A stretch of 64,000 nt of DNA, taken from positions 62,001 to 126,000 of the forward strand of contig JAEUJM010000029.1 in NCBI GenBank assembly GCA_016794585.1, written 5' to 3'. Origin of the DNA: Acidimicrobiales bacterium. GTDB lineage: Bacteria; Actinomycetota; Acidimicrobiia; Acidimicrobiales; DATDAH01. Below, piece after piece: positions 15,845 to 21,286 of this stretch. The notes beneath the pieces are model-generated. The model was not told the DNA's origin and ran no database searches. It saw only the letters and a program-made list of their open reading frames with translations. The stretch's first letter is position 1, and every line of letters starts with the position of its first letter. Both the position numbers and the translations under genes were made by a program.

Positions 15845-18022
15845 GTGCGCGAGCAGCGACGAGTACGACGACACACCGGCCGGTGGACCGGCGCCGCGCT
15901 CCTCCTTGCATTCGTGGCGGCCCTCGCGGTCTCCGCACCGACGGCGTCGGCGACGCCCACCCGAGGGGCCGCCGTCGAGACCGTGCAGCAGTCTCCGAAC
16001 GAACCGACCGCGGTCCAGGTGACGGCGGGGACCGACCACTCCTGCGCGCTCCTCGGCACGGGCGAGGTCAAGTGCTGGGGGGGCAACGCCTACGGCCAGC
16101 TCGGCGTCGGTGACACCGACACCCGCGGGGACACCCCCGGCGAGCTGGGCGATGGGCTCCCGCCCGTCGATCTCGGCGCCGACCGGACCGCCACCGCCAT
16201 CGCCGCCGCGGGCCACCACACGTGCGCGCTGCTCGACGACGGCACCGTGAAGTGCTGGGGCATGAACGACGTCGGCCAGCTGGGCCAGGACGACACCTTC
16301 GGCCACGGCTACAGCACCGGCCAGATGGGTGACACCCTGGCGCCCGTCGACCTGGGCGAGGGCCGCACGGCCGTGGCCATCACGGCGGCGGCTCGCGGCT
16401 GGCACCGGCCCAGCATCGGCTACACCTGCGCGCTGCTCGACGACGGGTCCGTGAAGTGTTGGGGTGGGAATGCCTACGGGCAGCTCGGCCAGGGTGTCCT
16501 GACGCCCCTCGGCGACCAGGACGGCGAGATGGCCGCGTTGGCTCCGGTCGACCTCGGGCCCGGGCGTACCGCCCTGGCCGTCGACGCGGGCGCCGAGTTC
16601 GCCTGCGCGATCCGCGACACCCACGATGTCGTCTGTTGGGGCGAGACGGACGGCGTCCACACCGATCGCCACGACGTGGACGACAGCGTCGGCGACGACC
16701 CCGGCGAGATGGGGAGTGCCCTGGTGCCGGTGAACCTGGGCCCGGGGCGCACGGCCACCGCCATCAGCGTCAGCGACACCCATGCCTGCGCGCTCCGGGA
16801 CGACCAGCGACTGGTCTGCTGGGGCCAGAACAACGACGGCCAGCTCGGCATCGGCACCACCACACCCGCTGGGCTGAGCCAGCCGCTCCCCGACGACCAC
16901 CCCTCGGTGGACCTTGGGACGGGCCGGACCGCGGTCGCCCTCACCACCGGCGGCTACCACCACACGTGCGTGCTGCTCGACGACCAGACCGTGAAGTGCT
17001 GGGGCGACTACCAGCGCGGCACCCTCGGCACCGGCGACCTCCTGCGTCGGGGCGACGGACCCGACGAGATGGGCGATGCCCTCCTCCCGATCGACCTCGG
17101 TCCGGGGCGCACCGCGACGGCGGTGACCCTCGGGGACTTCCACGCCTGCGCGGTCCTCGACGACGGCACCGTGAAGTGCTGGGGCGACAACGAGCGTGGC
17201 CAGCTCGGGCTCGGGGACACGTCCGTACGCGGCGACGCACCCGGCGAGATGGGCGACCAGCTGCCGGCGGTCGACCTCGGGACGCCGGCGCCCGCACTGG
17301 CCGTGGACGTCACCGCCGACCAGACCGAGGTCGAGGCGGGCTCGGCCATCGACTACCACGTCACCGTCACCAACACGGGCAACGTCGACCTCTCTGGCGT
17401 GACCGTGGTCGATCCCGCCGCACCGGCCTGTGCGAGCGACGTCGGGACGCTCACCGTCCGCAACGCGGTCACCGTGGACTGCTCGTACACCACGGCGGCG
17501 AACCACGCCGGCACCTACACCAACGTCGCCACCGCCGACAGCGACCAGACCGAGCCGGTGGACTCGACCCCGGTCGACGTCACCGTCACCCTCACGCACC
17601 AGCCCGACCTCGCCCTGAAGCTCGCCGGTCGGGCCTTCGTCGGCGGCGACGCCTATGGACGCGACGGCGCCGCCCAAGCGGTCGACGCCACACGCCGACG
17701 CGGCGGTCGGGCCACGTTCTACGTTCGCATCGAGAACGACGGCGCGGTGGCCGACACCTTCGACCTGCGACGCGTCGGCACCAGTCCCGGGGTCGACGTC
17801 CGGTTCTTCCGAGGGCGGACCGCCACCGACCTGACCGGAGCGGTCGTGGGACGCACCTACCTCACTCGCCCACTGGCGCCCGGCCAGTCCGTACTGGTGA
17901 GGGTGGAGGCCGTGGCGTCTGCCGGCGCGGCGCCAGGGACGCGCTCGATCGTCCTCCGGAGTCGCTCGACGACCGAGACGACCCGCGTCGACACGGTGCT
18001 CGCCCGGGTGACGGTGCGGTGA
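15845..18022 (+). CDS. Secreted seven-repeat RCC1 protein with DUF11 and C-terminal beta domain
   Basis: 725 residues. A signal peptide (cleavage near APTASATP) precedes seven RCC1-type blades, each with CA(L/V/I)-x-DD-x-x-V-KCWG and GQLG, then a long acidic loop GD-x-PGEMGD between blades that is longer than in the 4546-5817 protein. Residues ~480-590 are a DUF11/CARDB-like beta-sandwich (YHVTVTNTGNVDLSGVTVVD), and the last ~130 residues form another beta domain (YVRIENDGAVADTFDLRRVG). No anchor is visible. The gene has TACGCT at 15808-15813 and a G-rich leader before the GTG. It is probably an extracellular adhesion or scaffold protein; the function is unproven. Confidence 0.88.
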   Translation: MREQRRVRRHTGRWTGAALLLAFVAALAVSAPTASATPTRGAAVETVQQSPNEPTAVQVTAGTDHSCALLGTGEVKCWGGNAYGQLGVGDTDTRGDTPGELGDGLPPVDLGADRTATAIAAAGHHTCALLDDGTVKCWGMNDVGQLGQDDTFGHGYSTGQMGDTLAPVDLGEGRTAVAITAAARGWHRPSIGYTCALLDDGSVKCWGGNAYGQLGQGVLTPLGDQDGEMAALAPVDLGPGRTALAVDAGAEFACAIRDTHDVVCWGETDGVHTDRHDVDDSVGDDPGEMGSALVPVNLGPGRTATAISVSDTHACALRDDQRLVCWGQNNDGQLGIGTTTPAGLSQPLPDDHPSVDLGTGRTAVALTTGGYHHTCVLLDDQTVKCWGDYQRGTLGTGDLLRRGDGPDEMGDALLPIDLGPGRTATAVTLGDFHACAVLDDGTVKCWGDNERGQLGLGDTSVRGDAPGEMGDQLPAVDLGTPAPALAVDVTADQTEVEAGSAIDYHVTVTNTGNVDLSGVTVVDPAAPACASDVGTLTVRNAVTVDCSYTTAANHAGTYTNVATADSDQTEPVDSTPVDVTVTLTHQPDLALKLAGRAFVGGDAYGRDGAAQAVDATRRRGGRATFYVRIENDGAVADTFDLRRVGTSPGVDVRFFRGRTATDLTGAVVGRTYLTRPLAPGQSVLVRVEAVASAGAAPGTRSIVLRSRSTTETTRVDTVLARVTVR

Positions 18023-18754: not shown

Positions 18755-19831
18755 TCATCCGTAGCGGTCGAGGATGCTGGTCTCGGCCAGCCGGGCGAGG
18801 CCGTCCTTCATGGCTCGGGCCCGGCTCTCCCCCACGCCCTCGACCTCGTCGAGGTCGGCGATGGTGGCCCGCATGATCTTCTGGAGGTCGCCGAAGCGCT
18901 CGACCACGTTGTCGATCACGGCCTCGGGCAGACGGGGGATCTTGGCCAGGAGTCGATGCCCTCTCGGGGCGACACCGAGATCGAGGTCGACCTCGTCGGC
19001 CGACCCGGGCAGGTTGAGGGTTGCCGCGACACCCTTCTGGTCGAGGAGATCCTCGGTGGACAAGCTCGCCAGCGCGTCCAACGCATCCTCGAGGCGGTGG
19101 GCCTCGGTGCGGTGGAAGTAGTCGGCGACCGCGAGCCGGCGGTCGGCGACCACGCCGGAGTAGAGCTCTTCGAGCTGCAGGCGCACGAGCCGGCCGTCCT
19201 CGCCCAGTTCGACGATGTGGCTGTCGATCTCCTCGGCGATGCGCCGCACCATCTCGGCCCGCTGGATGACGCTGACCACGTCGCGCAGGGTGACGAGGTC
19301 CTCCACCTCGAGCGCCGACAGCGACCGGGACACCGCGTCGAGGCGGGTGCGGTAGCGCTCGAGGGTCTGGAGCGCCTGGTTGGACCGGTCGAGCAGACGC
19401 GGGATGGGCTCGAGGGGGTGCTTCTCGTCACCCACGTAGACGGCGATGACGGCCATGCGCTCGGACACCGAGATGACGGGCACGTTGATCGAGCGGGCGA
19501 CCCGCTCGGCCGTGCGGTGGCGGGTGCCCGTCTCGGACGTGGGGACGTTGGGGTTGGGCACGAGGTGGACGTTGGCCCGAGCGATGCGGCTGGCGTCCGC
19601 GGCCAGGATGATGGCCCCGTCCATCTTGGCCAGCTCGGACAGGCGCTGTGGGGTGAAGGCGGCGTCGAGCAGGAAGCCGCCCGAGCAGAGGTTGAGCACG
19701 TCCGGCCCATCGCCGACGACGATCAGGGCGCCCATCCCGGACAGCAGGATGCGATCGAGGCCCTCGCGCAGCGGACGCCCGGGCGCGGAGGCGGCCAGGG
19801 CGGCCCGGAGGGCTTCGCTTGGCTGCGCCAC
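18755..19831 (-). CDS. disA: Diadenylate cyclase DisA (DNA integrity scanning protein)
   Basis: 358 residues, the usual length. The N-terminal DAC domain has the catalytic DGAIILAADA motif and the ATP-binding GTRHRTAERVARS motif; a helical linker follows and the C-terminus carries helix-hairpin-helix DNA-binding elements (DLDEVEGVGESRARAM). It makes cyclic di-AMP from two ATP while scanning DNA and stops at branched or damaged sites. GTG start with TAAGCT 6 nt upstream. It lies just downstream of radA, on the same strand with 39 bp between, as in mycobacteria, where RadA modulates DisA activity. Confidence 0.96.
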   Translation of the reverse strand: MAQPSEALRAALAASAPGRPLREGLDRILLSGMGALIVVGDGPDVLNLCSGGFLLDAAFTPQRLSELAKMDGAIILAADASRIARANVHLVPNPNVPTSETGTRHRTAERVARSINVPVISVSERMAVIAVYVGDEKHPLEPIPRLLDRSNQALQTLERYRTRLDAVSRSLSALEVEDLVTLRDVVSVIQRAEMVRRIAEEIDSHIVELGEDGRLVRLQLEELYSGVVADRRLAVADYFHRTEAHRLEDALDALASLSTEDLLDQKGVAATLNLPGSADEVDLDLGVAPRGHRLLAKIPRLPEAVIDNVVERFGDLQKIMRATIADLDEVEGVGESRARAMKDGLARLAETSILDRYG

Positions 19832-19870: not shown

Positions 19871-21256
19871 TCAGACCGCGGCCACGAGGGGACGGCCGAG
19901 GCCACCGCCGTGGCACAGCCGCACGGCTTCGGCCAGGGTGGCGGCGGGCACGGCCCGCATGCCCGGCGGGGGCTCGGGGCCGTCGGGGGCGACGAGGGCG
20001 GTGGCAAAGCCGAGGCGGGCGGCCTCGGCGAGGCGTCGATCGAGTCGGGCCACCTGGCGCAGCTCGCCACCGAGGCCCAGCTCGGCGCAGACCACCACCC
20101 CATCCACCAGCGGGGTGTCGCTGGCGGCGGTGACCACCGCGAGGGCGAGCGCGAGATCCGCCCCCGGCTCGGTGACGCGCAGGCCCCCGGCGGCGAGGGC
20201 GTACACGTCGGACTTGGCCACGGAGATGCCGGCCCGCTCCTGGAGGACGGCGAGGATCATGTTCAGCCGCCCGCTGTCGACCCCCTGCGCGGAGCGGCGC
20301 GGGTTGCCGAGGTCGGAACCGGTGACCAGCGCCTGGATCTCGACGAGCAGTGGCCGGTTGCCGTCGAGGGTGGGCACGACGACCGAGCCCGGCACCCCCC
20401 GCCGGCGGTCGGACAGGAACAGGCCGCTCGGGTCGGGCACGCCGAGCATGCCCCGGTCGGTCATCTGGAACAGGCCCAGCTCGTGGGTGGGGCCGAAGCG
20501 GTGCTTCACCGCCCGCAGCATGCGCAGGGCGTGGTGGCGGTCGCCCTCGAAGGTGCAGACGGTGTCGACCACGTGCTCGAGCACGCGGGGCCCGGCCAGG
20601 GACCCGTCCTTCGTGACGTGGCCCACCAGCACGACGGCCACCCCCCGCTGCTTGGCTTCGGTGACGAGCTGAGCGGCGACGTGACGCACCTGGGCCACCG
20701 AGCCCGGTGCCGACGAGAGCTGCGGGTCGGCCAGGGCCTGGACGGAGTCGATCACCACCAGTGCGGGATCGGTGGACGAGAGGTCGGCCAGCACGGTGGG
20801 GAGACTGGTCTCGGCCACCAACCAGAGGTTGGGGTCGAGCGTGTCGAGACGACCGGCCCGGAGTCGCACCTGCTGACGGGACTCCTCGGCCGAGACGTAC
20901 AGGACGCGGTCACCGGCCGCGGCGCGGGTCGCGGCAGCCTGGAGCAACAAGGTGGACTTGCCGATCCCGGGCTCACCCCCCAGGAGGGTGACCGATCCGG
21001 GGACGAGCCCCCCGCCGAGCACCCGATCGAGCTCGTCGATGCCGGTGGGGATGGCCACCCATTCGTCGGCGGGCACCCGGTCGATCGGCATGGGGCCCGC
21101 GCCCGTGCGCCGTGCCGCGACGGCAGGGAGCGGCGCGGCCTCGGCCAGCTCCTCCACGAGCGAGTTCCACGCCTCGCACGTGGGGCAGCGCCCCAGCCAC
21201 CGCGGGGACTCGCCGCCGCACTCGCCACACCGGAACACCGTCTTGACCCGAGCCAT
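19871..21256 (-). CDS. radA: DNA repair protein RadA (Sms)
   Basis: 461 residues from the ATG at 21256. The N-terminal zinc finger is CGECGGESPRWLGRCPTC; the RecA-like ATPase has Walker A GGEPGIGKSTLL, Walker B ALVVIDSVQAL, and the RadA-specific motif as KHRFGPTHE (usual KNRFG, with His for Asn). The C-terminal third is the Lon-protease-like domain with a replaced catalytic centre. RadA promotes branch migration in recombinational repair. The frame extends 10 codons further, but those bases contain the promoter, so MARVKTVFRC is the start. Heads the radA-disA pair. Confidence 0.95.
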   Translation of the reverse strand: MARVKTVFRCGECGGESPRWLGRCPTCEAWNSLVEELAEAAPLPAVAARRTGAGPMPIDRVPADEWVAIPTGIDELDRVLGGGLVPGSVTLLGGEPGIGKSTLLLQAAATRAAAGDRVLYVSAEESRQQVRLRAGRLDTLDPNLWLVAETSLPTVLADLSSTDPALVVIDSVQALADPQLSSAPGSVAQVRHVAAQLVTEAKQRGVAVVLVGHVTKDGSLAGPRVLEHVVDTVCTFEGDRHHALRMLRAVKHRFGPTHELGLFQMTDRGMLGVPDPSGLFLSDRRRGVPGSVVVPTLDGNRPLLVEIQALVTGSDLGNPRRSAQGVDSGRLNMILAVLQERAGISVAKSDVYALAAGGLRVTEPGADLALALAVVTAASDTPLVDGVVVCAELGLGGELRQVARLDRRLAEAARLGFATALVAPDGPEPPPGMRAVPAATLAEAVRLCHGGGLGRPLVAAV

Positions 21257-21263
21257 ACGAACA

Positions 21264-21286
21264 AACGTACGCCCCGGGTGTGACAA
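21264..21286 (-). promoter_or_regulatory. DNA-damage-type promoter of radA (TTGTCA ... N8 ... TACGTT)
   Basis: Read on the minus strand, TTGTCA at 21286-21281 begins a 9-mer followed by exactly 8 nt and then TACGTT at 21269-21264. This matches the layout of the mycobacterial RecA-NDp/PafBC promoter (TTGTCRGTG-N8-TAnnnT), although the last three bases of the first box differ. TACGTT ends 7 nt before the radA ATG, so the message is leaderless. A near-match to the actinobacterial LexA box (CGAAC-N4-GTACG, one mismatch) overlaps at 21258-21271. Confidence 0.5.

Follow-up and report, generated by a model that had tools for sequence, protein, structure and literature searches.

A predicted PafBC-type DNA-damage promoter ahead of radA–disA in an Acidimicrobiales bacterium

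Results

We analysed a window of 64,000 nucleotides from the genome of an Acidimicrobiales bacterium. Here, radA (19871..21256, minus strand; NCBIfam equivalog TIGR00416 sms, 512 bits) is followed after 39 nt, on the same strand, by disA (18755..19831; NCBIfam equivalog NF010009, 473 bits), which is probably co-transcribed with it. Elsewhere in the window, an open frame at 15845-18022 carries RCC1-like repeats ('CALLDDGTVKCWG') and then a DUF11-like stretch, both recognized by reading, and probably encodes a secreted protein.

Upstream of radA, the minus strand from 21286 to 21264 reads TTGTCACAC-CCGGGGCG-TACGTT, that is, a 9-mer, exactly 8 nt and a TANNNT hexamer. This confirms the TTGTCA and the 8-nt distance from 9-mer to TACGTT described in the original prediction. 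Sequence and comparison with the rest of the genome and with relatives mark the 9-mer (21278..21286) as the presumed PafB-binding element, a -26 box in CAC spelling. It is separated by the spacer CCGGGGCG (21270..21277), whose length is unique in relatives, from the -10 element TACGTT (21264..21269), which has a G just before it. The published mycobacterial promoter consensus is tTGTCRgtg-8nt-TannnT (PMC5656591); at radA, TTGTCR is indeed followed 11 nt later by TANNNT, while the box ends in CAC and does not match gtg, given in lower case in the consensus. No -35-like hexamer is found 16-18 nt from the -10 element, where CCACGT, GCCACG and CGCCAC stand. The start codon of radA (ATG, 21256..21254) lies 7 nt beyond the -10 element, and the radA mRNA is thus predicted to be leaderless. 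The LexA-like box of the original prediction is present as well: on the plus strand, positions 21258-21271 read CGAACAAACGTACG, one mismatch from the palindrome CGAAC-N4-GTTCG, overlapping the -10 element and stopping just short of the predicted start site.

The radA promoter is the sole exact match to this layout in the window; with up to one mismatch, the window holds 4 matches against a shuffle mean of 1.8, which is no excess over shuffles. Throughout the 5.49 Mb genome, TTGTCR-N11-TANNNT occurs exactly 7 times (reversed control 2), and a gap of 10 nt instead gives 3 matches versus 2 in the control. The scan for N8-spaced TTGTCR promoters that the original prediction had proposed thus returns other damage genes besides radA. 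The genes downstream are uvrB, recQ (assigned from DEAD/Helicase_C domains and inspection of the sequence), recA, radA, a gene on contig C42 whose start overlaps a LexA-like box, a small protein gene and a PAS-like gene. In six of the seven matches, the box reads TTGTCR-SAS and TANNNT is preceded by a G; the match at the PAS-like gene lacks both features and was taken as chance. A search with this refined form, partly circular as the pattern was derived from the exact matches themselves, gave 19 matches with one mismatch allowed, against 8 in the control. The additions include genes with the Pfam domains UvrD-helicase, Exonuc_V_gamma (RecC), BFN and Mg_chelatase (ComM/YifB-like). Three further one-mismatch matches (L039, L040, L043) were taken as chance, and the match upstream of the ribosomal protein S6 gene (L042) is an uncertain one. 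Separately, a CAC-type promoter stands 7 nt ahead of a gene that we read as a ComF-like phosphoribosyltransferase (G000:C39:10534, L292). Together with the ComM/YifB match (L038), this gene suggests that the regulon may include DNA-processing genes of the competence type.

The regulators, whose genes the original prediction had proposed to look for, are encoded in the same genome. Contig C13 carries the order prcA-pafA-(DUF3866-like)-pafB-pafC-...-tatA-tatC-helicase, the genes outside the profile scan being named by reading. The PafB and PafC proteins match solved chains of PafBC (6sj9/7p5x) with values of 1e-26 to 1e-35, and an HTH_PafC domain is present. Against the NCBIfam library the two proteins gave no match; their identity is therefore based on Pfam, the solved chains and synteny. 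A lexA gene is located at C17:177536, close to two perfect boxes, and further perfect LexA boxes stand upstream of recA and of imuA'-like and dnaE2-like genes, the latter two named by reading their sequence. The genome contains six WYL domains in all. A second PafB/PafC-like WYL pair is found at L046:5583-8103 (G000:C44:41582-44102), and the small protein gene with the exact layout, which precedes it, has the damage-type promoter TTGTCAGAG-N8-TACGGT. Since most relatives have a single PafB-like match, the C44 pair may be a damage-inducible extra copy.

Conservation was assessed in 70 radA upstream regions of the class, taken to be Acidimicrobiia, the window's own among them, and in 63 recA upstream regions across the phylum. 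Exact TGTCR-N11-TANNNT is found in 32 of the 70 radA regions (shuffle mean 0.12), other spacings from 5 to 19 giving at most 2, and in 54 of the 63 recA regions (shuffle mean 0.24), with at most 3 at other spacings. As the start codon lies 6-9 nt past the -10 element in 30 of the 32 radA matches, radA appears to be leaderless as a rule. Across the class, the box mostly ends in CAC, CAG or TAC; at this genome's own recA it ends in GAC. In some relatives (e.g. L077, L094, L131 and L138) no clear box was seen at radA, and scanning named genomes for radA gave remote matches only.

The GTG and CAC spellings were counted in 198 genomes of the phylum, in which PafB was also sought. The 70 PafB-positive genomes, which are those with an aligned PafB and were picked partly by site counts, hold 510 sites in GTG spelling and 291 in CAC spelling, against 25 and 37 in the controls. 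The 20 genomes without PafB hold 19 GTG (control 12) and 8 CAC sites (control 14), which is no excess. The difference has a Mann-Whitney p of 9e-9, which ignores phylogeny and genome size, and the comparison is confounded by phylogeny. When families f50 and f55 are removed, the other 60 PafB-positive genomes retain 134 GTG (control 13) and 274 CAC sites (control 21).

The two spellings are unevenly distributed. In fifteen genomes of the class with PafB, the CAC spelling occurs 78 times (8 in the control) and the GTG spelling 7 times (3 in the control), and the box of this lineage is TGTCR-NAC-CC, that of mycobacteria TGTCR-GTG. Seven f50 genomes of 7-10 Mb (G140, G217, G236, G266, G275, G285 and G295), probably Streptomyces, have about 30-70 GTG sites each, with CAC at control level. 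In an alignment of PafB, position X of the recognition-helix stretch X-R-M-F-E-R-D-K parallels the spelling at recA: the GTG box is found there in 11/11 genomes in which X is S, N, D or E, and in none in which it is R, K or H. Apart from these, the genomes tested mostly have R, K or H. The rule is blurred by K-type families, which have some GTG sites genome-wide, yet recA boxes that are not GTG. Proteins with S, N, D, E or G at X form one clade on the PafB tree; the switch of residue and spelling may thus be a single event, and the idea of many independent covariations was dropped. Family f2 has Q, A, L or R at this position. In part of this family (L215, L212, L082 and L106), the recA and radA boxes are TGTGACACCC rather than TGTCACACCC, possibly a third spelling.

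Discussion

Our analysis points with high confidence to a PafBC-dependent, LexA-independent DNA-damage promoter that would drive a leaderless radA-disA transcript. The PafBC layout put forward in the original prediction is strongly supported by the pafBC locus and the repair-gene promoters of the same genome, by its conservation at radA in the class and at recA in the phylum, and by the absence of a motif excess in genomes without PafB. By analogy with mycobacteria, single-stranded DNA made by damage would bind the WYL domains of PafBC. PafBC would then be placed between the promoter DNA and domain 4 of sigma-A, PafB reading the -26 box TTGTCACAC. The housekeeping polymerase could thereby start at a promoter that has no -35 element, and radA-disA would be up-regulated after damage. 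PafB of this lineage is expected to read TGTCR-NAC-CC, not the mycobacterial TGTCR-GTG, and the weak LexA site over the -10 element may add a repression that is lifted by the SOS response.

This last element could amount to dual control, in which PafBC activates and LexA directly represses radA through the box over the -10, a reading that we hold to be possible but somewhat less than even. The LexA consensus in S. venezuelae is tCGAAC-N4-GNNCGa (PMC9380542), and CGAACAAACGTACG fits its core, albeit with the outer t/a absent. The C42 gene combines the same -26 box with an overlapping LexA-like box (TGAACGTATGTTCG), and perfect boxes stand at lexA and at the imuA'-like and dnaE2-like genes of this genome. 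Furthermore, of the 70 upstream/start regions of radA compared within the class, 12 contain a perfect CGAAC-N4-GTTCG, against a mean of 0.035 in shuffles. LexA boxes are thus seen again at radA in other families, and LexA probably controls radA in parts of the class. These perfect boxes, however, lie mostly across codons 2-6, with varied centres and not over the -10 element. We observed this codon placement (CGA ACN NNN GTT CG) in L085, L086, L087, L089, L098 and others. Moreover, the 5.49 Mb genome has 374 LexA sites when up to one mismatch is allowed, so that roughly 0.4% of 60-bp windows hold one, and most of these sites are probably chance. As the closest relatives (L070-L074) have no LexA-like box at radA, LexA control of radA in this genome is possible, not established; a function of the overlap is no more than plausible.

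It is unlikely that the activator is the second WYL pair on C44, or another WYL protein, instead of canonical PafBC. The six WYL domains would offer candidates, and the C44 pair is preceded by a gene whose promoter is of the same type; yet the motif is widespread although most relatives have one PafB-like match, and the canonical pair sits in a conserved proteasome locus. Even less probable is that an ordinary leaderless sigma-A promoter is at work, one whose -10 element is extended and whose upstream TGTC is incidental. Leaderless starts are common in actinobacteria, and about half of the radA boxes of the class have a G just before TANNNT; against this, the layout, with 7 occurrences in the genome, is rare and clusters at repair genes, its N11 spacing is exclusive and it is not enriched in PafB-less genomes. 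Finally, it is highly improbable that the motif belongs to the coding part of a longer RadA: a frame of 471 aa is open from a TTG at 21286, but relatives keep the DNA motif with an ATG 6-9 nt downstream, and their box begins with C in 19 and with G in 9 of the 32 matches, which speaks against a TTG start codon at this place.

Beyond radA, we tentatively propose, with slightly less than even confidence, a phylum-wide PafBC regulon with two dialects. TGTCR-NAC-CC would be the older one, used in most classes, and TGTCR-GTG that of one clade comprising mycobacteria and the large Streptomyces-like genomes. The switch would accompany the change from R/K/H to S/N/D/E, i.e. the loss of a basic residue of the recognition helix. 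In the mycobacterial complex, the HTH of PafB engages the -26 motif (PMC11804915), which makes residue X a reasonable candidate for setting the spelling. The data thus give a specific residue-to-base prediction of how PafB reads DNA.

As far as the literature that we found goes, PafBC was worked out in mycobacteria, and none of the PafBC papers that we found mentions Acidimicrobiia. Our data indicate that within the phylum this class of promoter is old, and that the mycobacterial spelling, used as a search query, misses it in several classes. The paper on the S. venezuelae LexA regulon (PMC9380542) mentions an initial search that suggested a lack of conservation, in that species, of the PafBC motif of M. 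smegmatis; set against the roughly 30-70 GTG sites per f50 genome, this is worth re-examining. Under such control of radA-disA, the damage response would be coupled to both recombination repair and the synthesis of c-di-AMP.

Compared with known systems, the radA site shares TTGTCR, the N8 distance to TANNNT and the lack of a -35 element with the mycobacterial RecA-NDp/PafBC promoter, and in both systems repair genes are targets and pafBC adjoins proteasome genes. It differs by its box, which has CAC here (often with CC next) and GTG there, by the predicted leaderless start of radA, and by radA itself as a target, which the M. tuberculosis mitomycin C paper that we consulted does not mention. 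The LexA-like box resembles the actinobacterial SOS box in being one mismatch from the palindrome and in fitting the degenerate S. venezuelae core, whereas one half-site is changed, the flanking t/a are missing, the nearest relatives do not keep it and it overlaps a PafBC-type -10 element. With DriD and other ssDNA-sensing WYL activators, the proposed mechanism has in common a LexA-independent, WYL-type damage activation; DriD, however, is a Caulobacter regulator, while the genome studied here has a PafB/PafC pair in a Pup-proteasome locus.
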